A stretch of 48,433 nucleotides of DNA from Acholeplasmatales bacterium (GTDB lineage: Bacteria > Bacillota_I > Bacilli_A > Acholeplasmatales > Anaeroplasmataceae). Made by a program: the position numbers and the translations under genes. Under the pieces are notes generated by a model that was given only the letters and a program-made list of their open reading frames with translations, ran no database searches and was not told the origin of the DNA. Where the stretch lies: assembly GCA_017462645.1 (NCBI GenBank), contig JAFTQR010000011.1, forward strand, positions 1 through 48,433, given 5' to 3'. The first letter of the stretch is position 1. The number at the start of each line of letters is the position of its first letter. Shown piece by piece: positions 1 to 25,489 of this stretch.

Positions 1-1
1 A

Positions 2-166
2 AAGAATCTAAGATGGTTTTTAGATACACCAACCTATAAAGTAGATAATTATATTGGTAAAACTAAGAAAGAAATTAAAAATACTTCATTTTTTAATTAT
101 GTATATTATGGTGATGGAGATACTGTAATATATCAATCACCAGATCAAGGTGAGAAGATAAAATAA
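2..166 (+). CDS. Penicillin-binding protein, C-terminal PASTA end (5' end outside window)
   Basis: Only the last 54 codons are visible. The frame encodes a PASTA-like tail (YKVDNYIGKTKKEIKN, then YGDGDTVIYQSPDQGE), which in class B transpeptidases of the PBP2x/SpoVD type follows the catalytic domain and is extracytoplasmic. It is nearly the same as the end of the truncated copy at 2569-3000, but a one-base insertion and a substitution give a TAA four codons earlier. Because the 5' part is not visible, I cannot say whether this is the intact gene or another fragment. The stop is followed at once by the first copy of a 25-bp sequence that recurs at 2993 and 4203. Confidence 0.75.
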   Translation, partial: KNLRWFLDTPTYKVDNYIGKTKKEIKNTSFFNYVYYGDGDTVIYQSPDQGEKIK

Positions 167-171
167 GGAGA

Positions 172-196
172 TACTATAATGCTATATATGGGATGA
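172..196 (+). repeat. 25-bp repeat, copy 1 of 3
   Basis: Starts TACTATAATGCTATATAT and ends GGGATGA. It is identical over 25 bases to 2993-3017 and 4203-4227. Here and at copy 2 it follows a PBP gene end. Sequence similarity to the other copies stops right after GGATGA, so it behaves like a junction. The 80 bases that follow hold only a possible 27-codon ORF from 193 and an imperfect 12-base direct repeat (212 and 244). Confidence 0.85.
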
Positions 197-291
197 TTAA
201 ATCATTTGGTTTTGAAAAAGAGGACATTTTAAATGAAAAAACGTTGAAAAAGAGGGCAAAACTATATATAATATAATTGGAGTTGATGCAT

Positions 292-1647
292 ATGCTATGG
301 AGAAAAAAACAAAAAGATATTGTAGAATGGATTCGTAAAGAAAAAAAAGCATTATTAATTACTGGTGCTAGACAAATAGGCAAAACATACATAATTAGAG
401 AAATGCTTAAACAAGAAAATTGTGATTATGTTGAATTCAATCTTATTGAACAACCAGAAATGATAAAGGTTCTTGAAGCAGTTACAAATAACAACTCTCA
501 AGCCTTTATTGAAAGGTTATCAATTGCTACAAGTCATAAGCTCGTTAAAGGAAAGACAATAATATTTTTCGACGAAATTCAAGAGTACAAAGAAATAGTC
601 ACTAAAATTAAATTTTTAGTAGATGATGGTAGTTTTAAATATGTTTTCAGTGGTTCTTTACTTGGTGTGGAGCTAACAGGATTGAAATCAGCACCAGTGG
701 GATATTTAAATACTATTGAAATGTTTCCTCTTGATTTTGAAGAATATTCAATTGCATTAAATATAAAAAAAGAAACACTTGAAAGGCTGTATAAAGCATT
801 TGAAGAAAAAAGAACTGTAGATGACTTTGTTCATGAAAAAATGCTTGAAGCATTTAGAAGTTATCTTTTGGTTGGTGGAATGCCTGAAGCAGTTAATTCT
901 TATGTTAACGATCATGATTATAATGAAATATATAAAATTCATCTTAATATAATAGAACAATATAAGTTGGATTTTACAAAGTATGAAAAAGAAAAACGAT
1001 TAAAATTAAAAAGCATTTATAATCTCATTCCTTCAGAGCTTGCTGATAAGAATAAAAGATATATTTTTAAAGATATTGATCCTAATATTAAATTTGATAG
1101 ATATGAAAATAGCTTTAATTGGTTAATTGATGCAGGTGTTGCAATTCCAGTATATAATGCAACTGAGCCTAGGTTACCTCTTGAAATTAATAAAAAGAGT
1201 AATTTGTTTAAACTATTTTTATCTGATATAGGTTTATTAACTAGCTTATACGGCAAAGCCACTCAAATGGCAATTATGAATCAAGATTTATCACTTAATT
1301 GTGGAGCCATCTATGAAAATGTGGTTGCGCAAGAATTAAATTCACATGGTTATGATGGCTATTATTTTAATAGTCATAAACAAGGAGAGTTGGATTTTGT
1401 TATAGAATATAAAAACCATATTGTACCTATTGAAGTAAAAAGTGGAAAGGATTATAGAAAACATTCGGCTTTAGATAATGTTGTAAACAATAAAGATTAT
1501 GGTGTGAAAGAAGCCTTTGTTTTTTCTAATGCTAATATTTCAGTTGATGATAAAATAATTTATTATCCAATTTATATGATAATGTTTGTCAATGAAGAAA
1601 TGATTGAAATTCCGAAATTGAAAAAGATAGATTTATCTATCATATAA
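292..1647 (+). CDS. AAA+ ATPase with DUF4143 C-terminal domain
   Basis: A 451-residue protein of the AAA_14/DUF4143 group. Walker A is GARQIGKT (residues 25-32), Walker B is IIFFDEIQE (about 90-98), and GSLLG near 125 is a sensor-like loop. The C-terminal third has ELDFVI followed by VPIEVKSG, the DUF4143 end that resembles a PD-(D/E)XK nuclease core. Such proteins are common in mobile and accessory gene sets, and their substrate is mostly unknown. I chose the ATG at 292 because GGAG at 279-282 lies nine bases upstream; an in-frame ATG at 286 would be too close. It stands alone between two PBP gene ends, so it was probably acquired by insertion. Confidence 0.85.
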   Translation: MLWRKKQKDIVEWIRKEKKALLITGARQIGKTYIIREMLKQENCDYVEFNLIEQPEMIKVLEAVTNNNSQAFIERLSIATSHKLVKGKTIIFFDEIQEYKEIVTKIKFLVDDGSFKYVFSGSLLGVELTGLKSAPVGYLNTIEMFPLDFEEYSIALNIKKETLERLYKAFEEKRTVDDFVHEKMLEAFRSYLLVGGMPEAVNSYVNDHDYNEIYKIHLNIIEQYKLDFTKYEKEKRLKLKSIYNLIPSELADKNKRYIFKDIDPNIKFDRYENSFNWLIDAGVAIPVYNATEPRLPLEINKKSNLFKLFLSDIGLLTSLYGKATQMAIMNQDLSLNCGAIYENVVAQELNSHGYDGYYFNSHKQGELDFVIEYKNHIVPIEVKSGKDYRKHSALDNVVNNKDYGVKEAFVFSNANISVDDKIIYYPIYMIMFVNEEMIEIPKLKKIDLSII

Positions 1648-1721
1648 TCAAAAGAAGATATAGAAAATATGTAGTTTTAGCTATTGTTATTAAGATTATT
1701 GAATAAATGAGGTTTGTCCAT

Positions 1722-2462
1722 ATGAAAACTAAAATTATAAATATAACAATTTGTATATTAATAGGTATTTTTGTAATCCTATTTCCAGTTATATCAGGAA
1801 TTATAGTAGGAATAACAAAAATGGAAGGAGCTAGTATATTATTTTTACAAGCCTTTTTTATGTTGTTACCTATAATTATATTTATAATATTAATTCTATT
1901 AAAAAAGATTAATGGAAAAGATATTAGACTTGTAACAAATGTTAATAAAAAGAATTATTTATATTATTTACCTGTTGTTCTAGTATATATACCAGTATTA
2001 ATAGGTGGATTTGTTTGGAAGGGGAGTGCCTATTTTTTTGGCAACTTATTATTGTATTTAGCGGTTGGTATTGCAGAAGAATTATATTTTAGAGGTATAA
2101 TACCACATTTGCTTGAAAAGGATTTTAAAAAGGAACCTGTCATTTTAATTTCTTCATTAATATTTGGGTTAGGGCATGCTGCTAGTGCATTTGCAAATAA
2201 TAATCCAATAGTTGTTGTATTAACAATATTAAATGCTTTAATATTTGGCTTTTTAGCTATATGCTTGCTTTACAAGACTAAGACTATTGTGCCGCTAATG
2301 ATTATCCATTTTTTATTTGATTTTGAAACAAAATTTATTGCATTAGAAGGTAATGACTTAAGTATTGCTGAAGGAGTTAGAGGATCAATAATGCTCATAT
2401 ATGCGATTATTTTATTTGTGTTAATTAGAAAAACTTCAAAATCAGAAGTTATGGGGAACTAG
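1722..2462 (+). CDS. CPBP family intramembrane metalloprotease
   Basis: A 246-residue, mostly hydrophobic protein with about seven or eight membrane segments. The CPBP/Abi (CAAX protease-like, PF02517) motifs are present in order: EELYFRG (Glu119, Glu120, Arg124), FGLGH (His151) and HFLFDF (His196), which are the expected metal-binding and catalytic residues. In Firmicutes these proteins act in bacteriocin self-immunity, peptide processing or signalling; the substrate cannot be told here. An ATG at 1707 is in frame, but the start at 1722 has a better-placed AGG and starts directly at the charged end before the first membrane helix. It follows the DUF4143 gene by about 70 bases and ends just before an IS-like remnant. 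Confidence 0.88.
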   Translation: MKTKIINITICILIGIFVILFPVISGIIVGITKMEGASILFLQAFFMLLPIIIFIILILLKKINGKDIRLVTNVNKKNYLYYLPVVLVYIPVLIGGFVWKGSAYFFGNLLLYLAVGIAEELYFRGIIPHLLEKDFKKEPVILISSLIFGLGHAASAFANNNPIVVVLTILNALIFGFLAICLLYKTKTIVPLMIIHFLFDFETKFIALEGNDLSIAEGVRGSIMLIYAIILFVLIRKTSKSEVMGN

Positions 2463-2467
2463 ATATA

Positions 2468-2568
2468 AAATGAACTGCCCCTTGTCAAGTAGACACGGTA
2501 AATAAAAAATAAAAAATAAAAAATGGCTTAGTTAAGCCGAAAAATGAACAGAAATCTCCTGCCCGATA
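2468..2568. mobile_element. Probable remnant of an IS3-family insertion sequence end
   Basis: The segment begins ATGAACTGCCCCTTGTCA and continues AAGTAGACAC, which resembles the terminal inverted repeats of IS3/IS150-group elements (TGAACTGnCCC...TAGACA type). It is followed by a 7-base tandem run (AATAAAA, three to four times) and an unexplained, comparatively G+C-rich stretch. No transposase is present and no second end was found. It lies at the point where the truncated PBP sequence begins, so an IS may have mediated that rearrangement. The family call rests on resemblance only. Confidence 0.4.
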
Positions 2569-3000
2569 ACGTTAGTCTTAGGTAAAACTGGAACAGCTCA
2601 GGTAATATCATCAACAGGTGGATATGAGTCTGGTCATTACATTTTATCATTTTTAGGTATGGCACCTATGAGTGATCCAGAGATACTTTGTTATCTTGCA
2701 ATAGGTAAACCACAAAATTGTGTACAATATGGTGGAACTGTTGCAGCACCACTTGTTGGTGAAATAATGGAACAATCACTTACCTATTTAGGTATAAATA
2801 GAGATTATGATAATCAAATAGAAAAGAATTTAAGATGGTTTTTAGATACACCTACCTATAAGGTAGATAATTATATAGGTAAAACTAAAAATGAAATAAA
2901 GAATACTCAATTTTATAATTATGTATATTATGGTGATGGAGATACAGTAATATATCAATCACCTGATCAAGGAGAGATGATAAAAGAAGAGATACTATAA
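2569..3000 (+). pseudogene. 5'-truncated penicillin-binding protein gene (transpeptidase end plus PASTA)
   Basis: The reading frame opens abruptly at the third transpeptidase motif: LGKTGTAQ at 2578-2601 corresponds to the KTG box of class B PBPs. It continues through the end of the catalytic domain (GGTVAAPLVGEIM) into a PASTA-like tail and stops at 2998. The SxxK and SxN motifs and all upstream sequence are missing and no start signal fits, so this is a fragment of about 144 codons and not a working enzyme. Its last 165 bases match the PBP end at the start of the window almost base for base. It is followed by the second 25-bp repeat and a complete hairpin at 3009-3030. This is probably the ancestral 3' flank. 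Confidence 0.85.
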
Positions 3001-3017
3001 TGCTATATATGGGATGA
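2993..3017 (+). repeat. 25-bp repeat, copy 2 of 3
   Basis: Identical to copies at 172-196 and 4203-4227. Only in this copy do the last nine bases (ATGGGATGA, 3009-3017) pair with a following TCATCCCAT (3022-3030), forming a hairpin with a four-base loop. The other two copies keep only the left arm. The breakpoint between copies therefore lies at the loop of this hairpin. Confidence 0.85.
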
Positions 3018-3030
3018 GTTTTCATCCCAT
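3009..3030. terminator. Terminator-like hairpin after the PBP end
   Basis: A nine-base-pair perfect stem ATGGGATGA/TCATCCCAT with loop GTTT. The following sequence is A+T-rich, but the U run is weak on both strands. It separates the plus-strand PBP end from the minus-strand DUF1016 gene that ends at 3034. Confidence 0.5.
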
Positions 3031-3033
3031 TAT

Positions 3034-3999
3034 TTAAATTCCATTTAATTTTCTTTCTAAATATTCAGGTAATTCCTCTATAAATTTATATTTTGATATT
3101 GCTAAAGGCTGAGATAAGCCTTGGAGAGATATCTTACATATAATATTATCTGCATCATGACATAAAAGTAAACCAATGGTTGGATTATCTATATTATCCT
3201 TTAAGAAAGTATCAACAGCATTAACATAAAAAATTAGTTGGCCTATATTTTCTGGTTCAAATTTTGTAAGTTTTACTTCAATAACGACAAATGAGTGAAC
3301 TTTAAAATTATAAAATAATAAATCTATTCTTCTTATTGAATCTCCTATATTTAGTTCATATTCTTTTCCTACTAACGCAAATCCCTCACCAAGGTCCTTT
3401 AAAAATACTACTATGTTTTCTAATAGTTTATTTTTAAATTCATATTCGTTATTGTTTTTACTTATTCCTGGATAATCAATAATATAAGTATCTTTAAACA
3501 TGTTTTCAATAGGTAAATTTATTTGGATGGAATTATTAGTGTTAGATAATTGTAATAGATATGTTCCTTTTTTAATTTCTCTTTCAACTTCAGGTCTAGA
3601 TAGTCTATTATTATAAGCATAATTAATATACCACATAACTTCCTCATGTGAGGAACACTTATGAATTATGCTCAGAATTGTTGCCCAAGGAATTTGGCTC
3701 ACAGGCTGTGAGCTAATTTCATAATATGAAAAAGTTTTAGCAAATAAAGACATTCGTTTCAAATTAGCTAATGACATCCCATGATAACCTTTTAAATCAA
3801 GAGCTAATTTAGTTAAAAATTTATTTCCCCATTGTTTTTGTTGATTTATTATTGTGCCTATTTCATAATAAGTCATAATCATAGTGCTATTAACAACAAC
3901 CATAGCTTTAGCTTGATTGGAACTTAGAGTGCTCTTGATTTTTTCTAATTCTTTTAAATAATCTTTCTCAATAATTGTAATTTCTTTTGTTTTAGTCAT
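3034..3999 (-). CDS. DUF1016 (YhcG-type) PD-(D/E)XK nuclease domain protein
   Basis: 321 residues. The N-terminal half (about 20-150) fits the DUF1016 N domain, with VNSTMIMTYYEIG and IPWATILSII. The C-terminal half has a PD-(D/E)XK core: RIDLLFYN (Asp226) followed by VVIEVKL (Glu241, Lys243) and IGQLIFYVN. Proteins of this type are putative endonucleases found on genomic islands and beside restriction or defence genes. The start is set at the ATG at 3999, which has AAAGGA eight bases upstream; an in-frame TTG at 4023 overlaps the attenuator U run and is unlikely. Expression probably depends on the leader/attenuator at 4014-4129. Target and physiological role are not known. Confidence 0.85.
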   Translation of the reverse strand: MTKTKEITIIEKDYLKELEKIKSTLSSNQAKAMVVVNSTMIMTYYEIGTIINQQKQWGNKFLTKLALDLKGYHGMSLANLKRMSLFAKTFSYYEISSQPVSQIPWATILSIIHKCSSHEEVMWYINYAYNNRLSRPEVEREIKKGTYLLQLSNTNNSIQINLPIENMFKDTYIIDYPGISKNNNEYEFKNKLLENIVVFLKDLGEGFALVGKEYELNIGDSIRRIDLLFYNFKVHSFVVIEVKLTKFEPENIGQLIFYVNAVDTFLKDNIDNPTIGLLLCHDADNIICKISLQGLSQPLAISKYKFIEELPEYLERKLNGI

Positions 4000-4029
4000 A
4001 GTAATTTTCCTTTCTTTTCTCAAAAATAA

Positions 4030-4059
4030 AAGCCTTACCGCATTTTAGCGATAAGGCTT
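4030..4059 (-). terminator. Intrinsic terminator/attenuator of leader copy A
   Basis: A twelve-pair stem (one G-U pair), six-base loop, then TTATTTTTG on the minus strand. It lies between the promoter and the DUF1016 start, so it would stop transcription unless opened. Confidence 0.85.
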
Positions 4060-4095
4060 ATTGTTCATATTAAGTTGGAATATTTGTAATATCAT
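4045..4095 (-). CDS. 16-residue leader peptide (attenuator ORF)
   Basis: Encodes MILQIFQLNMNNKPYR and ends with TAA inside the loop of the attenuator hairpin at 4030-4059. It has a well-placed AAGGAG. Its codon positions overlap the ascending terminator stem, the arrangement seen in translation-coupled attenuators of Gram-positive bacteria. Whether the peptide itself senses a drug or an amino acid is unknown. The ORF is destroyed by a single change in the second leader copy. Confidence 0.65.
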   Translation of the reverse strand: MILQIFQLNMNNKPYR

Positions 4096-4202
4096 AATTA
4101 CCAACTCCTTAGATAACTATATTATAGCAAAATCTCTGTTTCGAATCTATAATATTTTATCCATTTATATATTTCTAACTATTTATGTATTTATTATACG
4201 CT

Positions 4203-4227
4203 TACTATAATGCTATATATGGGATGA
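4203..4227 (+). repeat. 25-bp repeat, copy 3 of 3
   Basis: Identical to 172-196 and 2993-3017, but here with no PBP sequence next to it. It begins right after the promoter-distal spacer of the DUF1016 leader and ends two bases before the stop of the broken RhuM gene. It therefore sits at the 3' end of that minus-strand gene, as copy 2 does for DUF1016. Confidence 0.85.
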
Positions 4228-4228
4228 T

Positions 4229-5141
4229 TTAGTCTAAATATCTATTTAATAAATCATCAATATCAATACTTTCTAATTTAGATATTTGACTTATCTTTTT
4301 ACCTATATCGTTTATAGATGAACCAACATTATATAATTCATCATCTATTACTATGAATCTATCATGATACTTATTAGTTCTTACAATAGTTAAATCATGA
4401 TTTTGTTGAAATAAATTAATTTCTCTATTAGTTATAGGACTAGATGGATAAATGTAAATTGTTATAGATATAACAATACCCATTAACATTTCTAATACAG
4501 AATAATCATATAATGATTATTCTGTATTTTGCTGTATTAAATAAATTTTTAATAAAAGAATATCCTTCAAACATTTCCCCATTATAAAATATCTTATCTT
4601 TAAGTATATCTATAGAATTAATACTATCTAATCTTAATTCAACATTAGTTAATCTATTATTAAAATTAGTAATAGTAGAATTTATTTGATTAATAGCATT
4701 ATTCATTTGAATTATATTATCACTATGAGCTGTACATCTTGATTTATTAATAACATATCCATTCAGTAGATATTGTTTTAATATTGAATTAGCCCAACGT
4801 CTGAATATTATGCCTCTTTCAGATTTAACTCTATAGCCCACGGATATTATTATTTCTAAATTATAATAAGATATTTCTCTTTCTACATATCTATTACCTT
4901 CAAGTTGAACTATCGCAAATTTTGCGACAGTTGAATTTTTACATTCTTCATTTAATGCATTGTTAATATGTTTAGATATTGTTTTAATATCTCTATTGAA
5001 GAGTAAAGATATTTCGTTTCTATTCAACCAAACAGTTTCTTCATTAGGTGAAACATTAACATCTAATTCAAAATCACCATCTTTAAATTTAATTAATTCA
5101 TAATTTTTCTCAATCTTTTCAATTTTATTATTATCGTTCAT
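4229..5141 (-). pseudogene. RhuM-family virulence/DNA-binding protein, frameshifted
   Basis: The N-terminal part (start ATG at 5141, AAAAGGAAGG upstream) reads as a RhuM family protein: LDVNVSPNEETVWLNRNEIS, ISKHINNALNEE, STVAKFAIVQLEGNRYVERE, YYNLEIIISVGYRVKSERG, then FRRWAN. It stops at a TGA near 4512, in the phrase TAKYRIIII. The expected C-terminal part continues in another frame (SPITNREINLFQQNHDLTIV, then KYHDRFIVIDDELYNVGSSI), a phospholipase D-like HxxxxxxD region, and ends at 4229. The break coincides with a 35-base palindrome. A small deletion is the simplest explanation. The gene uses the second copy of the leader, which is itself damaged. Confidence 0.8.
4494..4528. repeat. 35-base palindrome at the RhuM lesion
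   Basis: AATACAGAATAATCAT, three bases (ATA), then its exact reverse complement ATGATTATTCTGTATT. It sits exactly where the RhuM reading frame breaks. No U run follows, so it does not look like a designed terminator. Confidence 0.85.
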
Positions 5142-5155
5142 AATATTTATCCTTC

Positions 5156-5271
5156 CTTTTCTCAAAAATAAAAGCCTTACCGCATTTTAGCGATAAGGCT
5201 TATTGTTCATATTAAGTTGGAATATTTATAATATCATAATTACCAACTCCTTAGATAACTATATTATAGCA
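5156..5271 (-). promoter_or_regulatory. Promoter plus damaged attenuator leader of the RhuM gene (leader copy B)
   Basis: Matches leader copy A (4014-4129) in 115 of 116 bases: extended -10 TGCTATAAT, AAGGAG, leader ATG (5237) and hairpin 5172-5201. The single difference (A at 5228 on the plus strand instead of G) turns leader codon 4 from CAA into TAA, so only three codons remain before a stop. An internal ATG could still give MNNKPYR but has no good ribosome binding site. If leader translation is needed to open the terminator, this copy should be switched off. Confidence 0.8.
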
Positions 5272-5333
5272 TATCTACACTCTGATTTCTATACGAGAGA
5301 TATTTTGAAAATAAGAATTTTATGGTAAAATAA

Positions 5334-5352
5334 AAGTATCGTTAAGTATCGT
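5334..5352. promoter_or_regulatory. Tandem repeat AAGTATCGT x2 before the XRE gene (possible operator)
   Basis: AAGTATCGT occurs at 5334 and 5344, spaced by ten bases, one helical turn. It lies about 50 bases upstream of the start of the membrane-bound XRE regulator, just after a poor TTGAAA/TAAAAT promoter-like stretch. Autoregulation is plausible but only inferred. Confidence 0.35.
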
Positions 5353-5397
5353 GACTTTTATTAGATTATTTATTATCATATGGGTGAGGTGATATAA

Positions 5398-6327
5398 ATG
5401 TTTAAGGATAACTTAATAGAGGAAAGAAAAAAACATGATGATACTCAGGATTCCTTAGCTTTAAAGCTTAATGTATCAAGAAGCCTAGTTGCTAAATGGG
5501 AGCAAGGCAGATCATTTCCCTCTTTAGATGATATAAATAAAATATGTGAGATTTATTCTTTAGAATTTGATAATTTATTATCTAAAGCTGAATTAAAGGA
5601 AAGATATGGAGTAGTTGAAAAGAAAAACAAAAGAAAAAATATTATAATTACCTCAATTATAATAGGTGCATCATTGTTTATTATTACATTAAGTATTATA
5701 TTTTTTATTATAAGTATTGGGACAACAGGTGCTTATTATAAGAGTCGAATTAAAGATTCATTTACTAGTAATTATGAATTTAAATTGCCTTTTGAGGCTA
5801 ATAATATGACCTTTGCAGGAGATTATTATTTTGATAATGATATATCATTTGATGAAATGGAAGTAGCATTAGAGAATAATGGCCATGTGGTTGAAAGAGG
5901 AAAATATGAGAATGGAGATGAATATTTAATATTAAGCTTCTTTTATGAGGATAGATTTGCTCCAATGTTTATAATATATGAAATAAATGCTGATAGATAT
6001 TGTGTAGCTGAATTAACTGACTATATTGATTATTGTACTTATTCATCACCACTTCATTTTATAGATAAAGAAAGAACGAATAATTATAATCTACAAAATG
6101 AAACAACAAATTATCTAGCAATTAATATAGACTTTGATGAGTTAGTTAGCTTTTATGAGAAGTCAGTATCTGGAATTATTAAAATTGATGTTGATAATAA
6201 AATAATATATGTTAAAGCTAAATCTTCTAAATTAGGAGATTCAATTAATTCAGTTATGAAAATCGAATATATGGAATTAGCTGATGGTAATTATATTGAG
6301 GTTAATAAGGTTTCTAGCTTTGATTAA
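5398..6327 (+). CDS. Membrane-anchored XRE-family regulator with extracytoplasmic domain
   Basis: 309 residues. An N-terminal helix-turn-helix of Cro/CI type (about residues 5-62: TQDSLALKLNVSRSLVAKWE, then GRSFPSLDDINKICEIY) is followed by a basic stretch KKNKRKN and one strong membrane helix (about 80-108). About 200 residues outside the membrane follow, with no recognised domain. This layout suggests a one-component sensor that reads a signal at the cell surface. It starts a probable operon with the lipoprotein at 6348 (20-base gap, GGAGG) and the DUF6440 gene at 7082. The start is supported by GGTGAGGTG upstream. The signal and the regulated genes are unknown. Confidence 0.75.
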   Translation: MFKDNLIEERKKHDDTQDSLALKLNVSRSLVAKWEQGRSFPSLDDINKICEIYSLEFDNLLSKAELKERYGVVEKKNKRKNIIITSIIIGASLFIITLSIIFFIISIGTTGAYYKSRIKDSFTSNYEFKLPFEANNMTFAGDYYFDNDISFDEMEVALENNGHVVERGKYENGDEYLILSFFYEDRFAPMFIIYEINADRYCVAELTDYIDYCTYSSPLHFIDKERTNNYNLQNETTNYLAINIDFDELVSFYEKSVSGIIKIDVDNKIIYVKAKSSKLGDSINSVMKIEYMELADGNYIEVNKVSSFD

Positions 6328-6347
6328 ATAACTGAGGAGGTATTTTA

Positions 6348-7079
6348 ATGAGAAAAATATATTATATCTTTATGATAGCATTATTACTTATGCTTGCGTC
6401 ATGTAATTTAGATGATGTAGGACTTAATAATAAAATTTTTTATTACGAAAAAATAGATGAAGAATCTATTGCTATCGGAAATGTTATAGAAATTCCAGAA
6501 AATGGTGCTGTTTTTATACCATATCAGATAGATAGTTATAATGTGTCAAAATTAGGTTTTAATTCAGGCTTAGGTTTTGGTGGTAATGGGTATTTATCAC
6601 AAAATAGTACCGAAAATATGTTTACTAGATGCTATATTCCATGTTCGGTTAATAGTGTAATGGGAGGTTACTTTAAGTTTGTAAATCATACTAAGATCTT
6701 TTATGGTGGAAAAGCATTTGATTTAGAGTGTTTTAATAACTTAAGAGAAGGAAATGAATTATATGTATTACCTAGTGAATATGATTCTTTTTGTGAAATT
6801 TATGATGATAAATGGCATCAATCAATACATAAAGCAAATGTTATTTATCACTTAAATAATGATAGTTTTGAAGATAATGTATATTATCTTGATTACTATA
6901 ACGACAATGAGTTAATAACATATATTCCACCAATACCAAATAGAGATGGGTTTACCTTCAAAGGCTGGTATATGGAGGAAGAATGTATAAATGAATGGGA
7001 TTTTGAAAATAGTAAGCCTTCATTTAATACATCAGATTATAAGTTGGTATTGTATTCTAAATGGATAAAGGAGAAATAA
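6348..7079 (+). CDS. Lipoprotein with C-terminal InlB B-type (Flg_new) repeat
   Basis: 243 residues. The signal peptide ends in a lipobox (LMLASC, Cys19), so it is predicted to be a surface lipoprotein. The C-terminal 75 residues resemble one Listeria/Bacteroides InlB B-repeat: VIYHLNNDS... IPNRDGFTFKGWYMEEEC ... LVLYSKW. The middle part is not recognised. B-repeats are beta-rich modules found in surface and adhesion proteins. It follows the membrane XRE regulator with a good GGAGG site, so the two products could meet at the membrane; whether they interact is inference. A DUF6440 gene starts two bases after its stop. Confidence 0.7.
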   Translation: MRKIYYIFMIALLLMLASCNLDDVGLNNKIFYYEKIDEESIAIGNVIEIPENGAVFIPYQIDSYNVSKLGFNSGLGFGGNGYLSQNSTENMFTRCYIPCSVNSVMGGYFKFVNHTKIFYGGKAFDLECFNNLREGNELYVLPSEYDSFCEIYDDKWHQSIHKANVIYHLNNDSFEDNVYYLDYYNDNELITYIPPIPNRDGFTFKGWYMEEECINEWDFENSKPSFNTSDYKLVLYSKWIKEK

Positions 7080-7081
7080 AT

Positions 7082-7261
7082 ATGGCTGATGATAAAAGAT
7101 TTGAAAAGGTATATTCACAAGGAATATCTAGTGTAGTAGAAATTTGGGTAGATAAAAAAACAGGTGTAAATTATCTTTTTCGTATTAGTGGATATGCTGG
7201 TGGATTAACACCACTTCTTGATAAAGATGGTAATGTTGTTGTTACCCCAATTAAAAAATAA
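7082..7261 (+). CDS. Small DUF6440-type protein
   Basis: 59 residues, with the pattern RFEKVY...GVNYLFRISGYAGGLTPLLDKDGNVVV that I associate with the DUF6440 family of short cytoplasmic proteins. The function of the family is not known to me. The ATG at 7082 has AAAGGAG eight bases upstream, inside the end of the lipoprotein gene, so it is probably the last gene of that operon. Directly downstream begins a new promoter (TTGACA at 7267) and a riboswitch. Confidence 0.65.
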   Translation: MADDKRFEKVYSQGISSVVEIWVDKKTGVNYLFRISGYAGGLTPLLDKDGNVVVTPIKK

Positions 7262-7266
7262 ATATA

Positions 7267-7295
7267 TTGACATTTTATTAAAAAATTAATATTAT
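7267..7295 (+). promoter_or_regulatory. Promoter of the S-box-like leader
   Basis: TTGACA (7267-7272), 17-base spacer, TATTAT (7290-7295): a near-consensus sigma-A promoter. Transcription would start near 7302, at the first bases of the aptamer. Confidence 0.75.
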
Positions 7296-7300
7296 TAAAT

Positions 7301-7388
7301 TACCATAAGGAGAAGACGAGAGACAAGCTCTATGACTCTTCAGCAACCTGCAATATGTAAGGTGCTAAAGCTTGAATGATGGGATATA
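7301..7388 (+). promoter_or_regulatory. S-box-like (SAM-I/SAM-IV group) riboswitch aptamer
   Basis: The core ACGAGAGACAAGCTCTATGA, then CTCTTCAGCAACCTGC ... TAAGGTGCTAA, matches the S-box pattern (GAGGGAcugGCCCuAUGA, then CAGCAACC ... AAGGUGCUAA). A short P3 forms between ACC and GGT around an AATAT loop. An A+T-rich P1 may form between 7291-7306 and 7378-7395. The helix that normally follows GGTGCTAA (P4) is absent or very short, so this may be a reduced variant. The 3' strand GATGGGA can pair with the terminator arm TCCCAT, as expected of an antiterminator switched by ligand. Confidence 0.7.
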
Positions 7389-7405
7389 TTAATTACTAAT
7401 AATAC

Positions 7406-7434
7406 ACTCCCATTGCGATGGGAGTTTTTATTTT
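7406..7434 (+). terminator. Riboswitch-controlled intrinsic terminator
   Basis: ACTCCCAT, loop TGCG, ATGGGAGT, followed by TTTTTATTTT. Its left arm can alternatively pair with GATGGGA at 7378-7384 in the aptamer, giving a choice between terminator and antiterminator. Confidence 0.85.
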
Positions 7435-7465
7435 CTTCTTGTGGAATATTTTAGGAGGAAATAAA

Positions 7466-7627
7466 ATGGATAATAAATTAGAAGAAATTGTACCTAATAT
7501 TTTATATAAATATAAGGGTATATTAATTAGAAGGATAGGAGAGCGTTATATTTGTACTATTGATGGTGGTACATTTATATTTAACGAGCTTGACCTAATA
7601 ATTGGAATTATTGAGGCTTTAGTATGA
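7466..7627 (+). CDS. 53-residue protein, first gene after the S-box-like leader
   Basis: Encodes a short, non-exported protein starting MDNKLEEIVPNILYKYKG, with TAGGAGG five to six bases before the ATG. Its TGA overlaps the ATG of the next gene (ATGA), so the two are translationally coupled. I do not recognise the sequence; it is compact, has no Cys or His pairs and no membrane helix. Its position suggests it is a partner or regulator of the amidohydrolase-like enzyme that follows. Confidence 0.65.
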   Translation: MDNKLEEIVPNILYKYKGILIRRIGERYICTIDGGTFIFNELDLIIGIIEALV

Positions 7628-8280
7628 AAATATTATTACATATGCCTCATACAAGCCTAAGGCTTCCAAAAGCCTTTTATAAAGGCTTATTAATAGATAA
7701 AAATCTATTAAATAAATATAATTTATTAATGACTGATTTAGGTGTAGATACTCTTTTTAAAATCTTTAAGGCTAAAATAATAAAGCCTAAATATTCTAGG
7801 CTTTATTGTGATTTAGAAAGATTTAAGGATGATAGCTTAGAAATAATGAGTAAATATGGACAAGGTGTTATATATACTCATACCTATGATGGATTATTAT
7901 TTCATCAGCATGATGAAAAATATAAAAGAAAAGTATTAAAATATTATGATAAATACCATAAAAGACTAGATAAAACAGCTAAAAACCTATTAAAAAAGGA
8001 TGATACTTTATTAATATTAGATTGTCATAGCTTCTCAGATAAAATGGCGTCATATTTAAATAATGAGCCATTTCCTGATATCTGTATAGGTATAGAAAAA
8101 GACTATTATGATGAGAAAATATTAAATAATATAATTAATAAAATAAAAGAAAAAGGATATACCTATCAAATTGAATATCCATATAAGGGAAGCTTAGTTC
8201 CTAATTATATTTATAACAATAAGGTAAATGGTAAGGTTATTTCTATAATGCTTGAAATAAATAAAAGAATTTATTTATAA
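7624..8280 (+). CDS. N-formylglutamate amidohydrolase-like hydrolase
   Basis: 218 residues that fit the FGase family (PF05013): MPHTSLRLP near the start, then TDLGVDTLF, RLYCDLERF, GQGVIYTHTYDG, ILDCHSFSD, YPYKGSLVPN and the end SIMLEINKRIYL. The Asp, His and Glu residues in these motifs are the likely zinc ligands and catalytic residues. Classical FGase removes formate from N-formylglutamate in histidine breakdown, but no histidine genes are near, and shorter members like this one may act on other N-acyl amino acids or peptides. Control by an S-box-like leader instead suggests a link to sulfur, methionine or one-carbon metabolism, which is inference. Confidence 0.75.
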   Translation: MKILLHMPHTSLRLPKAFYKGLLIDKNLLNKYNLLMTDLGVDTLFKIFKAKIIKPKYSRLYCDLERFKDDSLEIMSKYGQGVIYTHTYDGLLFHQHDEKYKRKVLKYYDKYHKRLDKTAKNLLKKDDTLLILDCHSFSDKMASYLNNEPFPDICIGIEKDYYDEKILNNIINKIKEKGYTYQIEYPYKGSLVPNYIYNNKVNGKVISIMLEINKRIYL

Positions 8281-8317
8281 AATATGCTCATTTTATCAAG
8301 TATATATTATTAATATA

Positions 8318-8326
8318 TGCTATAAT
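8318..8326 (+). promoter_or_regulatory. Extended -10 promoter of the methyltransferase
   Basis: TGCTATAAT about 20 bases before AAAGGTGAT and the ATG at 8346. No clear -35 is seen, as is usual for extended -10 promoters. Confidence 0.55.
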
Positions 8327-8345
8327 CATTAAAGGTGATAATTAT

Positions 8346-8936
8346 ATGGATTTAGAAGTAGAACTAGATAAAATTCTTAAAATCAAAACTAGTGGTAGAG
8401 ATGATTCAAAATCAAATTATATCAATTTTCCATATGAGCCTACTCCCTATTGTGTATTACAGGAATTATCTAATAGTGGATATATTACTAAGGCTGATAA
8501 GATAATTGATTATGGTTCAGGCAAGGGAAGAGTTGATTTTTATTTAGCTTATAGTAATAAAGCTAATATGATTGGTGTTGAATATGATATAAGGTTATAT
8601 AATAAAGCATTAGATAATCATAAAAATTCAATTAGCTCAGGTAGGGTTCAATTTGTTAATTGTAATGCTTTAGATTATGAATTCCCTGATGATGCTACTG
8701 GAGCTTATTTCTTTAATCCTTTTTCTATAAAGATGTTAGAAGAGGTTATAAAAAGTATTAGATTATCTAAGAAAAGAAATAATAGGGAAATAAAATTATT
8801 TTTCTATTATCCATCTAAGGAATATATATCATTTTTAAAGGAAAATGATGATATTATTTATTTAGATTATATTAATTGTATGGATTTGTTTAGACAGGTT
8901 GATAAAAAGGAATGTATCGCAATATATAAGCTATAA
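8346..8936 (+). CDS. Class I SAM-dependent methyltransferase
   Basis: 196 residues with a Rossmann-type SAM-binding motif IDYGSGKGRVDFYLAY (about residues 49-64), an acidic strand end IGVEYD (about 77-82) and a later loop VNCNALDYEFPDDATGAYFF, where NPFS may correspond to the (N/D)PP(Y/F)-like catalytic site. The substrate is not evident; the length and motif order resemble small uncharacterised methyltransferases of Bacilli. It has its own promoter and a good AAAGGTG site and is followed by a terminator, so it is probably expressed alone. Confidence 0.75.
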   Translation: MDLEVELDKILKIKTSGRDDSKSNYINFPYEPTPYCVLQELSNSGYITKADKIIDYGSGKGRVDFYLAYSNKANMIGVEYDIRLYNKALDNHKNSISSGRVQFVNCNALDYEFPDDATGAYFFNPFSIKMLEEVIKSIRLSKKRNNREIKLFFYYPSKEYISFLKENDDIIYLDYINCMDLFRQVDKKECIAIYKL

Positions 8937-8939
8937 TAA

Positions 8940-8968
8940 GAAATAGAGTTTATCTATTTCTTTTATTT
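8940..8968 (+). terminator. Terminator after the methyltransferase gene
   Basis: GAAATAGA, loop GTTTA, TCTATTTC, then TTTTATTTATT. Confidence 0.75.
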
Positions 8969-9021
8969 ATTAATATTTGGTGTTATAATATTAATGTTAT
9001 TTTTGGAATAGAGGGATTATT

Positions 9022-10185
9022 ATGAAGTCATTTTCTAAATTATTAGATAGCTTTGGAGAAGGTATTTTTAAAAAATTAAATGATAAAAAAATAGAATTAG
9101 AAAATCAAGGTAAGGAAATACATGATTTATTTGTAGGTACTCCTGATTTTGAGCCTAATTATAGAATTATGAAGGTATTAAGTGATGCATGCTTAAATAG
9201 CGAGGATTATAAATATTCATTAAGGGTTTTACCAGAGCTTAAGGATGAATTTATTAATTATTATAAAAAAAGATTTAATGTAGAATTAAATCATGAACAA
9301 ATTACAATGTGTAATGGCACTCAAGAGGGTATGTGTCATATTGGTATGTGTGTATGTAATGAGGATGAATATTGCCTATTACCTAATCCAGGCTATCCAG
9401 CATTTACCTCTAGCGCAAAGCTTGCTAAGGCTAATATTTATTATTATCCCTTATTAGAGGAAAATGATTTTATGCCTAGATTAGATTTAATAGATGAGGA
9501 AATATTAAGGAAAACAAAATATGTTATTATTTCCTATCCATCAAATCCAACGGGTGGTGTAATAACAAAGGAAAGATATAAGGAAATTATTGCGTTAGCT
9601 AAGAAATATGATTTTATTATAATAAATGACAATGCATATTCTGATATAGTATTTGACGGATTTGAGTCATTTTCATTCTTAGAGCTTGATGGTGCAATTG
9701 ATGTAGGTGTTGAGTTTTATTCATTATCTAAATCTTTTAACACTACTGGTGCTAGAATATCATTTTTATTAGGTAATCCTGATATTATTAAAGCATTTGA
9801 TAAATTAAGAAGCCAATATGATTTTGGAATGTTTATTCCAATTCAAAGAGCAGCTATAGAGGCATTAAGGCTTGATAGAAGCTTTGTTTTAAAGCAGCAA
9901 GCAATTTATCAGGAACGAAGAGATGCCTTATGTGATGGTCTTACTAGCATTGGCTGGAGGGTTAGAAAATCTAAGGGTACAATGTTTGTTTTTGCGAGAA
10001 TTCCAGATAAATATAATGATGGTATGGAATTTTCTATTGAATTATTGAATAAGGCCAATGTATTAGTTACACCAGGTATATCGTTTGGTCCGCTTGGTGA
10101 TAAATATGTTAGATTTGCGTTAGTAAAGGAAAAGGAAGAATTATTAAGAATAGTAGATATTATTAAAAAATCTGAAATATTATAA
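9022..10185 (+). CDS. PLP-dependent aminotransferase, class I/II
   Basis: 387 residues, a fold-type I aminotransferase. GTPDFEP at 39-45 and YPSNPTGGVI at about 172-181 are substrate and cofactor-loop motifs; INDNAYSDI (about 201-209) carries the Asp and Tyr that contact the pyridine ring; SLSKSFN holds the Schiff-base Lys at 237; and the C-terminal RFAL Arg should bind the substrate carboxylate. Length and motifs fit aspartate/LL-diaminopimelate-type enzymes, but the amino acid partner cannot be decided. An extended -10 (TGTTATAAT, 8981-8989) and GAGGG before the ATG support independent expression. A bidirectional terminator follows. Confidence 0.9.
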   Translation: MKSFSKLLDSFGEGIFKKLNDKKIELENQGKEIHDLFVGTPDFEPNYRIMKVLSDACLNSEDYKYSLRVLPELKDEFINYYKKRFNVELNHEQITMCNGTQEGMCHIGMCVCNEDEYCLLPNPGYPAFTSSAKLAKANIYYYPLLEENDFMPRLDLIDEEILRKTKYVIISYPSNPTGGVITKERYKEIIALAKKYDFIIINDNAYSDIVFDGFESFSFLELDGAIDVGVEFYSLSKSFNTTGARISFLLGNPDIIKAFDKLRSQYDFGMFIPIQRAAIEALRLDRSFVLKQQAIYQERRDALCDGLTSIGWRVRKSKGTMFVFARIPDKYNDGMEFSIELLNKANVLVTPGISFGPLGDKYVRFALVKEKEELLRIVDIIKKSEIL

Positions 10186-10192
10186 AAAAGAA

Positions 10193-10216
10193 GAAGGTAG
10201 CAAAATTGCTACCTTC
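10193..10216. terminator. Bidirectional terminator between convergent genes
   Basis: GAAGGTAGCAA/TTGCTACCTTC nearly perfect stem, with T-rich sequence on the plus side and A-rich sequence (T-rich on the minus strand) on the other. Confidence 0.85.
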
Positions 10217-10224
10217 ATATCTTT

Positions 10225-10887
10225 TTAATAACCTATTTTGTTTTCTTTAGTGTTAATTACTAAATCAGCTTCAGTTATTTTTTCACCAAAGCCACTGTCG
10301 ATACCGATAGTAACGAAACCATGCTCCTTACCAATTGCTAAATACTTATTAACGTCCTCGAATAATACTACTTCCTTAGGATTAGCATTCTTTAAAATCT
10401 TCATAATTTCTACATAATAATCAGATTTCACCGGATGAGCCTCATCACAGAAGAATGAATTTCTTTCGTTAAAGTAACGATAGAATTCCCATTTCTTCAT
10501 AATCTTTAGCGCAACGCCTTTATTTTGTGCAGATACTAAGAATACCTTAATACCTAAACCAGCATCAGATAATACATCTTGAATAAACTTAAATGGTCTA
10601 GATTCCTTTAAAATAATTTTAATAGCTAACTTAGCTCTCTTTTTAGAATATTTTTCCTTATCTTCAATTACGATATTATAATCCTTTTCGATTTCACCTA
10701 AGAATACCTCTTCAGGCTTACCTAAATAAGATAAAATATGCTCATGATCAACCTCGATACCATATTCCTTCTTTAATATTTCATTATGAGCCACCCAGTG
10801 TAGTCTTTCTGTGTCAGCTAAAGTACCATCTAGGTCGAAAATGAAACATCTTTTGTTGTCTAACAGCTTTTTAATTTTTTTGTACAT
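10225..10887 (-). CDS. HAD-superfamily hydrolase, beta-phosphoglucomutase-like
   Basis: 220 residues. Motif I is FDLDGTLADTE (nucleophile Asp18 and Asp20), a helical cap follows (about 25-90), motif II is FLVSAQ (Ser/Thr strand), motif III Lys lies in HPVKSDYY, and motif IV is VVLFEDV. This is the subclass I cap type, which includes beta-phosphoglucomutase and phosphoglycolate phosphatases. The phosphorylated substrate is unknown. The ATG is preceded by GGAGGGTGA. The gene is transcribed away from the MATE gene; the 240-base gap between them holds T-rich spacer and the MATE promoter. Confidence 0.88.
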   Translation of the reverse strand: MYKKIKKLLDNKRCFIFDLDGTLADTERLHWVAHNEILKKEYGIEVDHEHILSYLGKPEEVFLGEIEKDYNIVIEDKEKYSKKRAKLAIKIILKESRPFKFIQDVLSDAGLGIKVFLVSAQNKGVALKIMKKWEFYRYFNERNSFFCDEAHPVKSDYYVEIMKILKNANPKEVVLFEDVNKYLAIGKEHGFVTIGIDSGFGEKITEADLVINTKENKIGY

Positions 10888-11131
10888 AAAGTCACCCTCC
10901 TAAATTTGTTTAAATATTATTCAATTTTTCATTGTATTTTGTAAAGGATTGAAAGAAAAAAATGAAAAAAAACCAAAATACATATTAAAATAGAACTGTT
11001 ATTTATATCTTTATTTTACTAATTAATTTGAAATATGTCAACTTTTATATTTTTATTTGTGCAAAATGTACAACAAAATGTGAAAAATGCTGTATAATAC
11101 AAGAAAATGAATGAAAAAGGAGGGGAATTGC

Positions 11132-12469
11132 TTGAGGCAGGAAAATAAAACATTTTTTAAAGAATTAAATAAGCTAATGCTGCCAATAGCCTTCCAAACA
11201 TTCATGCTAGCTGCTGTTGCAGCATCAGACTCTATTATGCTTGGCTTGGTAAGCCAGGATTCATTAGCGGCTGTATCATTAGCCTCTAAAATCCAATTTG
11301 TACAAAATATTGGGCTTGCTGCGTTAGTAGGTGGTGGTAGTGTATTAGCCTCTCAATATTTTGGGAAAAATGATTTTAAAAAGGTAAGTAGCATTTTCTC
11401 ACTTGTTTTAAGATATTCAGTAATTATATCAATTATTTTTTGGGCGATATCATTATTTATCCCAGAGGAATTAATGAGAATATTTACTGATGATATAAAT
11501 ATGATTAATATAGGTAGTAAATATTTAAGGGTATCATCATGGTCATATTTAATTGTTGGAATCACTCAAACGTATTTATGTATGCTAAAGGTTTCTAATA
11601 AAGCATATTTAAGTGCGATAATAAGTTCTATTGCAGTTGTATTAAATATATTATTAAATGCTGTATTTATATTTGGGTTAATAGGATTTAGTGAAATGGG
11701 GGCTGAGGGAGCTGCCCTAGCTACTGTAATAGCTAGAATTATTGAATTAATTTTATCTATTATAATAGTAATGGCTTATAAAATTAAGCTTGATAAAAGA
11801 AATATCATATCCTTTGAAGGTACTATAGAAAAGGAATTTTGGAAAATATCTAGTCCGATTTTATTGAATGAAGCAATTTGGGGAATTGGTGTTACTATTT
11901 ATTCTATAGCCATCGGTCATTTGGGAAGTGATGCTACAGCGGCAAATTCGATAGCTTCAGTTGTTAAGGATTTAGTAACAAGCCTATGTAGAGGAATAGG
12001 CGTAGGTGGAGGAATATTACTTGGCTATAAGCTTGGTAGTAATAAACTTGATGAGGCTAAAAGCTATGGCAATAAGCTAGTTAAGCTATCTATTATAGGT
12101 GGTATTATTTGTGGTTTAATAATTTTAGCAACAATGCCTATAGCTCTACAAATGGATTTAAGTAATAATGCTAAGGATTATTTAACTATTATGTTAATAA
12201 TTTGTGCATTTTATATGGTTTCAAAATCAATGAATGTTGCAATAATAAATGGAATATTTTATGCAGGTGGAGATTCTAAATTTGATACATATTGCATAAT
12301 AACGACAATGTGGTTTATGATTATCCCCCTTGCTCTAATAGGAACATTTGTTTTTTCTTGGCCAGTTTTGGTAATATATCTTATTATTAGCCTAGATGAG
12401 GCAATTAAAATACCGTTTGTTCTTGCAAGATATAAAAAATATAAGTGGTTAAAAAATTTAACAAAGTAA
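11132..12469 (+). CDS. MATE family multidrug/cation antiporter
   Basis: 445 residues with about twelve membrane helices in two homologous halves, as in MATE (NorM/DinF-type) exporters that use a sodium or proton gradient to expel organic cations. Typical stretches are LMLPIAFQTFMLAAVAASDS, MLGLVSQDSLAAVSLA and, in the second half, INGIFYAGGDSKF. I place the start at the TTG at 11132, with AGGAGGGG six bases before it; an ATG at 11111 is in frame but lacks a site. TGctgTATAAT at about 11088-11098 may be the promoter. The closing hairpin at 12471 is shared with the convergent gene. Substrate unknown. Confidence 0.9.
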   Translation: MRQENKTFFKELNKLMLPIAFQTFMLAAVAASDSIMLGLVSQDSLAAVSLASKIQFVQNIGLAALVGGGSVLASQYFGKNDFKKVSSIFSLVLRYSVIISIIFWAISLFIPEELMRIFTDDINMINIGSKYLRVSSWSYLIVGITQTYLCMLKVSNKAYLSAIISSIAVVLNILLNAVFIFGLIGFSEMGAEGAALATVIARIIELILSIIIVMAYKIKLDKRNIISFEGTIEKEFWKISSPILLNEAIWGIGVTIYSIAIGHLGSDATAANSIASVVKDLVTSLCRGIGVGGGILLGYKLGSNKLDEAKSYGNKLVKLSIIGGIICGLIILATMPIALQMDLSNNAKDYLTIMLIICAFYMVSKSMNVAIINGIFYAGGDSKFDTYCIITTMWFMIIPLALIGTFVFSWPVLVIYLIISLDEAIKIPFVLARYKKYKWLKNLTK

Positions 12470-12470
12470 A

Positions 12471-12492
12471 AAAGGCTCTTTTTGAGCCTTTT
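12471..12492. terminator. Bidirectional terminator
   Basis: AAAGGCTC, loop TTTTT, GAGCCTTT with T run on one side and A run on the other, between the convergent MATE and dehydrogenase genes. Confidence 0.8.
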
Positions 12493-12493
12493 A

Positions 12494-13387
12494 TTATTTT
12501 AAGTATTCAATTATATTATTTAATACCTTTTCTCCAAGTCTTACATATGCCTGATATGATTTTCCACCAGCAGATCTATTAATAGTAAATGTATTTTGTA
12601 AATCCCAAATAGAATTATCACCCGCAGTAGCTAATGTATCACCAAAGAAGAAGTGATTATCCTCCTTAAGCCATTCCTTTAATGCTTCAACATTAAAGCC
12701 TGGACCAATTGAGGTGTTAAATAAAATTCTTTTACCCTTCATTAAATTAAATTGCTCCTTTTGAAGCAATAATACATTTTTATTTAATGCAAGGAAAATT
12801 GCCTCACTTTCACTACAAAGTGTATTTAAATCCTTATATTTAATATCCTCATTATTTTCAACATCATATTTTCTAGTACGACTATAATATGATACATCTG
12901 CCTTAAAGAATTTTAACGCTCTAGCAATTAATGTACCACTAGTACCTAATCCGATAACACCACACTTTAATCCTGTTATTTCATGTGCTATATTATCCCA
13001 TTTGAATTCCTTATAGCCTTGAAGGAATTCAACTAGCTCATGAATAATATATTCAGCAACACCCTCATCACCATAATCTCTAATACCCTTTACGATAATA
13101 CCAAGCTCCTCGGCTTTAGTAATATCTACATTTGCTGATTCCTTAGAATATAATGAACAGCACATTCCAACATATTTTAGATTTTTAGCATTTTCTAATA
13201 CATAAGCATTAATTGCTGATGTAAAGGATAATAATACTGCATCTGCATCATCTATTCTTTTTAATATTTCATTGTCATTAGTAGGAATATCCTTATAATA
13301 GATAACCTCCTTAGCATATTTATTTAATTCCTCAACATGCACATTAAGCATATTTATAGGTTCTATAATTACTAATTTATTAAACAT
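12494..13387 (-). CDS. D-2-hydroxyacid dehydrogenase-related NAD(P)-binding protein with altered active site
   Basis: 297 residues. The N-terminal catalytic-domain half, the dinucleotide fold VIGLGTSGTLIARAL (Gly-rich loop near 148) and the second part follow the 2-hydroxyacid dehydrogenase layout. The usual N-x-x-R-G segment with the catalytic Arg reads instead NTSIGPGFNVEAL, and no H-I-A/G catalytic His is seen near the end (TINRSAGGKSYQAY). It may therefore be a divergent oxidoreductase or a non-catalytic binder. I use the ATG at 13387 with AAGGAG nine bases upstream. It is transcribed divergently from the aspartate dehydrogenase-like gene, 67 bases away, which suggests shared control. Confidence 0.7.
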   Translation of the reverse strand: MFNKLVIIEPINMLNVHVEELNKYAKEVIYYKDIPTNDNEILKRIDDADAVLLSFTSAINAYVLENAKNLKYVGMCCSLYSKESANVDITKAEELGIIVKGIRDYGDEGVAEYIIHELVEFLQGYKEFKWDNIAHEITGLKCGVIGLGTSGTLIARALKFFKADVSYYSRTRKYDVENNEDIKYKDLNTLCSESEAIFLALNKNVLLLQKEQFNLMKGKRILFNTSIGPGFNVEALKEWLKEDNHFFFGDTLATAGDNSIWDLQNTFTINRSAGGKSYQAYVRLGEKVLNNIIEYLK

Positions 13388-13454
13388 TGCAAAACACTCC
13401 TTATTTGTTATAATATTAATATTAAATGAAATAAAAGTCAAGGAGAGTAGTATT

Positions 13455-14231
13455 ATGATAAGACTAGGATTATATGGTTGTGGCAGATTAAATAAAATTG
13501 TTGTTGATTGTTATAAAAAGGGATTGCTAGATGGCTTTGAAATAGTAGGCTGTTATAGTAAAACTAAGGAAAGCAGAGAAGAAATGGCTAATTCACTAAA
13601 TATTAAGCCATGTGATACATACGATGAATTATTAAAAAGAAATATTGATTATTTAGTAGAAGCTGCTAATCCTTTAGCTACTAAAGCTATATTAGAAAAA
13701 ACAATAAATAATAAGGTTAATATAATCTTATTATCTATTGGTGCCCTAGCAGATGAGGGTTATTATAAAAATATAATTAATCTTGCTAAGGAAAATAATG
13801 TTAGAATACATTTAGCTAGTGGTGCTATTGCAGGATTCCAGGTATTACGTACAGCTAACATTATGGGCTTAACTAAGTCATCACTTACTAATACTAAGGG
13901 ACCTAGAGCTCTATCTAAAACTACATTGTATAAAAAAGAAATGGAAGTTGATAATGTAGTTGCGTTTGAAGGTAGTGCATATAACGCAATTCAAAATCTT
14001 CCTACAGGTATTAATGTCGGTGTAGCTACAGCTCTAGCCACAATGGGTGTACATGATACAAACATATTAATACAGTCAAAGCCAGGCTTTATTGGTGACA
14101 GTCAATGCATAGATATTGAATGTGGAGAAGAAATTAAAGCCCATTTAGATGTATATAGTAGAACTAGTGATATTGCAGGATATAGTGTAGTAGCATTATT
14201 ACAAAATCTAATTAGTCCAATTGTATTCTAA
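13455..14231 (+). CDS. Aspartate dehydrogenase-like NAD(P)-dependent oxidoreductase
   Basis: 258 residues. The N-terminal Rossmann domain starts LGLYGCGRLNKI and continues VEAANPLATKAILEK and LLSIGALAD; the C-terminal domain has HLASGAIAGFQVL and the NLPTGINVGVATALATMGV segment that aligns with the DUF108 domain of L-aspartate dehydrogenase. Such enzymes convert aspartate and NAD(P)+ to iminoaspartate or oxaloacetate plus ammonia and can feed NAD synthesis, but no nad genes are visible here. Start and AAGGAG spacing are good. A terminator follows at 14235. Confidence 0.75.
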   Translation: MIRLGLYGCGRLNKIVVDCYKKGLLDGFEIVGCYSKTKESREEMANSLNIKPCDTYDELLKRNIDYLVEAANPLATKAILEKTINNKVNIILLSIGALADEGYYKNIINLAKENNVRIHLASGAIAGFQVLRTANIMGLTKSSLTNTKGPRALSKTTLYKKEMEVDNVVAFEGSAYNAIQNLPTGINVGVATALATMGVHDTNILIQSKPGFIGDSQCIDIECGEEIKAHLDVYSRTSDIAGYSVVALLQNLISPIVF

Positions 14232-14234
14232 AAT

Positions 14235-14258
14235 AAGCCCTTTTTAGGGCTTTATTTT
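14235..14258 (+). terminator. Terminator after the aspartate dehydrogenase-like gene
   Basis: AAGCCC, loop TTTTTA, GGGCTT, followed by TATTTTAATTT. Confidence 0.75.
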
Positions 14259-14292
14259 AATTTATAAGAATATAATTACATGGTGATTCAAT

Positions 14293-14598
14293 ATGGAAAA
14301 GAATCCTATTCAAAACTTTGTTAATTATTTCTTTTCTTTAAGTCCATATGAATTCTCTATTTTAGCCAATCTAATTGGTATTTTTTTGACTATTCCATTA
14401 GATGTTAATCAGCAAAATTCATTAGGTAATTTTTTTGAACTAATAGGGCAGCAAATATTAACTATTCAAGCACAAAATTACAATATAAATGATTCTATAA
14501 ATATAAATTTTAATGAAATACTTAAACAGATTAATTTTAAATTTGAATATTTAGAGGAGCTAATTAATTATCTTATGGCTTTTAAAGATAAAAAATAG
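14293..14598 (+). CDS. Conserved-looking hypothetical protein, 101 residues
   Basis: Not assigned to a family. The protein has a central hydrophobic segment (YEFSILANLIGIFLTIPL, about 19-36) followed by DVNQQNSLGNFFELIGQQIL and a charged helical end. The pattern (an SPxEFxxLAxxIG segment, then QNSLGNF..IGQxxxTIxAQ) reminds me of short uncharacterised proteins of clostridia, but I cannot name a role. GGTGAT lies before the ATG. It precedes the DUF1893 and reductase genes by about 50 bases and could be the first gene of that group, although TATA-rich sequence between leaves room for a separate promoter. Confidence 0.6.
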   Translation: MEKNPIQNFVNYFFSLSPYEFSILANLIGIFLTIPLDVNQQNSLGNFFELIGQQILTIQAQNYNINDSININFNEILKQINFKFEYLEELINYLMAFKDKK

Positions 14599-14648
14599 TA
14601 TAATTAAAATATATGTTTCTATTTATTTTAAGATATAAAAGGTGATTT

Positions 14649-15050: not shown

Positions 15051-15051
15051 T

Positions 15052-25461: not shown

Positions 25462-25489
25462 ATTTGAAAATAATATATAATCTATAAAG

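Follow-up and report, generated by a model that had tools for sequence, protein, structure and literature searches.

We analysed a 48,433-nucleotide stretch of DNA (hereafter, the window) that constitutes the entire contig C41 of an Acholeplasmatales bacterium (genome G000; 1.0 Mb in 47 contigs, 65%-complete, presumably a metagenome bin), focusing on its left end, where copies of the 3′ end of a spoVD-like penicillin-binding protein (PBP) gene are interspersed with candidate defence genes. The gene was named spoVD-like because its homologue in a related species (G021) scores 642 bits against TIGR02214, below the cutoff of 688, and has transpeptidase, dimerisation and PASTA domains. As stated in an original prediction made on this DNA, a 25-mer (TACTATAATGCTATATATGGGATGA) occurs exactly at 172–196, 2993–3017 and 4203–4227 (+ strand in each case); no further copy with three or fewer mismatches occurs in the window, and 0 occurrences are expected in shuffled sequence. 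It ends with the three bases of the spoVD stop codon (ATG CTA TAT ATG GGA TGA), which explains why the copies share a right edge, and past this stop codon their neighbouring sequences differ.

The first gene-end copy (1–196, + strand) is broken by a premature TAA at 164–166, and the upstream part of its gene is probably located on contig C25; the sequence of C25 stops at spoVD position 1625 and that of the window starts at position 1728, such that the two contigs, judged by these matching partial coordinates, probably adjoin. The second copy (2580–3017, + strand) is a displaced 3′ fragment of approximately 438 bp running from the KTGT motif, which is frameshifted and terminates at a TAA (2998–3000); the near-identical stretch of about 165 bases noticed previously corresponds to 1–167 versus 2823–2989, at 90% identity. 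The segment ahead of this fragment (2463–2579) resembles an insertion-sequence end (TGAACTGCCCCTTGTCAAGTAGACA). The third copy consists of the 25-mer and, compared with intact counterparts in G021 and G007, appears to be the remnant of an 80-bp spoVD-end copy after an internal deletion of ~50 bp. A perfect 9-bp hairpin (ATGGGATGA-gttt-TCATCCCAT; −12.7 kcal/mol, z −4.1) spans the stop of copy 2 at 3009–3030, and is read as a terminator between convergent genes. The prediction was right about this hairpin, but not in having copy 1 end at the loop, as copy 1 runs beyond it with TTAAATCAT and retains a weak palindrome (−4.7 kcal/mol).

The genes among these copies were placed as originally described: a DUF4143/AAA_14 ATPase gene (277–1647, + strand; PADLOC candidate PDC-S01), a CPBP (Rce1-like) CAAX protease gene (1707–2462, + strand), a DUF1016/YhcG PDDEXK nuclease gene convergent to spoVD (3034–4023, − strand; PDC-S02), whose product carries a D...E-V-K motif, and a RhuM-family gene (4229–5165, − strand; PDC-S05), split by a frameshift into open reading frames (ORFs) at 4229–4489 and 4506–5165. 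PADLOC places DUF4143, DUF1016, RhuM, Fic and a DUF234-like ATPase in candidate or known single-gene defence families; across genomes, PDC-S01, S02, S05, S27 and SoFic-like families are represented at the locus, and several defence or candidate defence genes thus cluster at one site. The functions of the PDC families are mostly unvalidated (PMC12988326, PMC13356809).

A second repeat pair, at 3958–4129 and 5100–5271 (both − strand; 90% identical), represents a leader common to DUF1016 and RhuM. The former copy, with a small upstream ORF and a terminator-like hairpin, belongs to DUF1016, and the latter, upstream of RhuM, forms the right edge of the array. The order of leader elements is a TATAAT promoter-like sequence, a ribosome-binding site, a short ORF (in many cases with QLN within it and KPYR at its end), a terminator-like hairpin, T-rich sequence and then the gene. 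The hairpin arms covary between species, and throughout the genus and family (loci L016, L018, L019, L070–L088) the leader precedes both DUF1016 and RhuM genes. It matches no Rfam family at gathering thresholds; it resembles a transcription attenuator, here shared by two candidate defence families that are not related to each other.

We searched relatives for the spoVD end, initially in 40 genomes, then in all 27 genomes of the Anaeroplasma-like genus and finally in the wider family. Within the genus, the gene end was found in five species (G000, G007, G015, G017 and G021), four of which (all except G015) carry the array. G015 has one spoVD end at the locus, G017 two, and G021 and G007 five each, with a probable decayed sixth in G007 on contig C51. 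The 13 sister-genus genomes each have a single spoVD end. Neither DUF1016 nor RhuM was found downstream of spoVD in G015 or in 7 of the 13 sister-genus genomes. The array is therefore restricted, within the set of genomes searched, to this Anaeroplasma-like genus, and the empty sites that the original prediction called for exist as single-copy sites in G015 and the sister genera. A penicillin-binding transpeptidase domain was present in just 6 of the 27 genomes of the genus, which suggests that the genus spans cell-wall loss.

The content of the locus varies at this conserved flank. The first cargo after the full spoVD is DUF4143 with the CAAX protease in G000, relBE-like cargo in G021, Fic in G017 and DUF1016 in G007, with a DUF234-like gene also among the cargo that differs between the four array genomes. 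This cargo is succeeded by 3′ fragments of spoVD, with DUF1016 or RhuM genes running convergently up against most of the stops. The spoVD-end copies separating the units measure 25 to 907 bp, and all are in direct orientation. In G021 and G007, an extra 51–81 bp of spoVD end lies ~50 bp past each leader, where the window keeps 25 bp. These results bear out the proposals that the PBP 3′ end is a recurrent acquisition point and that copies of the gene end are part of its units. In G021, a transposase (rve/IS481-like), an AAA ATPase and a small ORF (L036, contig C159, 226–2517) lie immediately upstream of a spoVD fragment.

The borders of the copies bear on how units are acquired. One explanation is site-specific recombination, in which the stop palindrome would act as attachment core for a recombinase encoded elsewhere and units would insert as cassettes, as for PAISt of Streptomyces turgidiscabies, which integrates at the bacA 3′ end by means of a self-encoded tyrosine recombinase acting on an 8-bp site (PMC4057263). 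PAISt resembles the present locus in its use of a chromosomal gene 3′ end, a palindrome and repeated sites yielding modules. The right border of every copy is the stop or its terminator-like palindrome, nearly constant in position, and the palindrome GATGATTWAATCAT is retained beside several different neighbours, both of which agree with an attachment site. The left borders, however, are ragged (G021-gene positions 1018, 1450, 1485, 1573, 1627, 1652, ~1843 in four copies, and 1899), leaving variable gene fragments of 51–907 bp to the left of the site that such a mechanism does not explain. Furthermore, the palindrome is kept to varying extents and is missing between the stop and the relBE and Fic neighbours, and tracts of shared sequence cross the site. 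Only the right edge thus approaches the precise constant core that bounds PAISt units, and the clean breakpoint originally proposed at the hairpin or GGATGA base is not supported by these ragged borders, variably kept palindromes and crossing tracts.

The window's genome does encode enzymes that could act in this way, namely a XerC/D-like tyrosine recombinase and three serine recombinases; two tyrosine recombinases (contigs C25 and C11) are found in this 65%-complete assembly. The XerC/D-like enzyme and two large serine recombinases are encoded by an ~11-kb insert that interrupts G000 spoVD on C25 (reverse strand of bases 1–16000; 5′ part to 4341, 3′ part from 15425), the junctions of which share ATGTAAT, with AAGTGGATTA inverted near both ends. 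The recombinase sought outside the window therefore exists, but its element lies away from the repeats, within spoVD at codon ~351 and ~0.9 kb before the stop. PF00589 and PF00239 gave no matches on C41, in keeping with the absence of an integrase from the window noted originally, and the parts of the array inspected in relatives showed no recombinase; here, unlike in PAISt, the repeats are 25–907 bp long and no recombinase was found within the array. Taken together, we consider site-specific recombination at the stop unlikely. In a separate search, the repeat had no exact match on viral contigs and no match in phages, and its matches in plasmids were weak and unrelated.

Integron cassettes and XerC/D pdif modules likewise form arrays of small gene units, including toxin–antitoxin genes, split by a repeated sequence. 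The spoVD-end array shares with them small units, toxin–antitoxin genes included, between repeats; it would differ in lacking an integron integrase, and does differ in showing no recognised attC-like fold, a single orientation, ragged length and a coding repeat. The 28-bp pdif sites alternate in orientation, whereas the copies here are direct and 25–907 bp long. The C25 tyrosine recombinase, the one enzyme scored, reached 121 bits against an integron integrase cutoff of 265.

Sequence comparisons among the array species point to exchange between them. In copy 2 of the window, left of about −290 (relative to the stop), 22 of 23 informative sites favoured G017 over the spoVD of G000 itself, whereas right of this position G021 was the better match than G017 (16:5), making the fragment a mosaic. 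Similarly, a G021 spoVD fragment is G007-like (19:6) and then G021-like (23:8). Over the last 40 codons of full-length spoVD, synonymous differences were 0.13–0.17 among the array species, versus 0.37–0.40 against the array-free G015, and most bins in the rest of the gene gave 0.26–0.6. The DUF1016 unit is 92% identical at the nucleotide level among G000, G007 and G021, compared with 70–75%, or 70–77% at the widest reckoning, for their spoVD bodies; for G000 and G007, the values are 92% over 1.1 kb and 70%, respectively. The tract shared by G000 and G007 starts near −300 and continues across the stop to about +1100, and identity between G017 and G007 remains high through the stop to about +80, within DUF1016, and rises again at the leader. 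The mosaic fragments, the low synonymous divergence and the 92% DUF1016 block together argue for RecA-type exchange via the gene-end copies, and Anaeroplasma-like species seem to have traded blocks of gene end plus defence gene through ordinary homologous recombination.

These same values weigh on a purely vertical history, in which a spoVD end with DUF1016 was duplicated once in an ancestor, then decayed and took up unrelated insertions, without any exchange between species. Such a history fits the unit spacing (1187–1236 bp), which is similar to that of tandem DUF1016 arrays elsewhere, as well as the leader/spoVD-end junction, which is the same in G021 and G007. It does not fit DUF1016 units so much more alike than the spoVD bodies, nor fragments closer to other species than to their own genome's gene, and we regard it as quite improbable. 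In G007, a tandem run of whole and partial DUF1016 genes, their N-terminal modules mosaic (L069, contig C39, 2876–8153), suggests that sequence variation there arises via recombination among DUF1016 copies.

A further explanation is suggested by free-standing homing endonuclease ORFs of fungal mitochondria, which displace gene C-termini (Allomyces and Glomus atp6, cox2 and nad3; PMC3630166). By analogy, the DUF1016/YhcG nuclease (PDC-S02) might cut spoVD ends that lack it and be inserted there through repair that co-converts the gene end, the displaced ends then becoming landing or exchange sites for other defence genes. There is a parallel in organisation: in G000, G007 and G021, DUF1016, whose window protein has the D...E-V-K motif, is flanked by a displaced and a replacement C-terminal end, the spoVD 3′ ends are more alike among carriers than against the non-carrier, and in the mitochondrial cases the ends are also duplicated, displaced and horizontally acquired around a nuclease ORF. 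The present locus differs in being bacterial, in having multiple units and mixed non-nuclease cargo, in being known from sequence alone, and in its nuclease gene, which is convergent and not fused in frame. Furthermore, RhuM, which is not a recognised nuclease, occupies the same position, and PADLOC lists DUF1016 as a defence candidate. A homing element would generally reside in its target gene, whereas DUF1016 with the same leader also occurs at other loci that lack gene-end repeats. No flanking gene-end or direct repeats were seen at single-copy DUF1016 or RhuM loci elsewhere in the family, and we also rejected on this ground the idea that DUF1016/RhuM units themselves generate flanking direct repeats. 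A homing-like role of the nuclease is thus highly doubtful.

We favour the reading that the spoVD 3′ end is a hotspot for accretion and shuffling of candidate single-gene defence genes that are exchanged by homologous recombination, with a probability of roughly 0.6. Of the mechanisms listed in the original prediction (a site-specific recombinase acting from elsewhere, hairpin-directed single-strand recombination and homologous exchange), the last fits best, and the first fails on the features tested. The first extra spoVD end would have arisen either by tandem duplication of a spoVD-end/DUF1016 segment or by single-crossover integration of spoVD-end DNA; a tandem origin together with DUF1016 is plausible because DUF1016 makes tandem mosaic arrays elsewhere in G007. 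Tandem DUF1016 copies at loci that lack spoVD likewise speak for this reading. The repeated spoVD ends and leaders would then provide homology for crossovers, presumably RecA-dependent, that add, lose or swap units, and no dedicated recombinase would be required.

Several points weigh against this reading. The 907-bp perfect duplicate of its own spoVD end that G007 contains, otherwise in favour of this reading, loses identity ~10 bp beyond the stop, in the manner expected of a site-directed boundary, and the lowered synonymous divergence could partly result from constraint on the DNA. The sample comprises one genome per species, so that events are deduced across divergent species and not strains, and the comparisons among array species are not mutually independent. 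Several contigs break inside repeats, leaving array order incomplete and short-read assembly error possible. Outside the array, the window carries a SAM riboswitch (7300–7385) and a cobalamin riboswitch (25478–25637).

The spoVD-end array is a defence hotspot of unusual form. It resembles known defence islands and hotspots in its dense, lineage-specific set of candidates at one locus beside a conserved gene, and differs in that copies of the 3′ end of the flanking gene itself lie between its units. Literature searches for DUF1016, RhuM and DUF4143 jointly, or for gene-end duplicates at defence hotspots, turned up nothing directly relevant in the collection of papers searched. Little is known about how single-gene defence candidates accumulate and spread in bacteria with small genomes; at this locus, the reiterated end of a neighbouring gene would supply built-in homology, a simple way to add and exchange them that needs no recombinase. 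Furthermore, the locus provides natural presence/absence contrasts for PDC-S01, PDC-S02 and PDC-S05.

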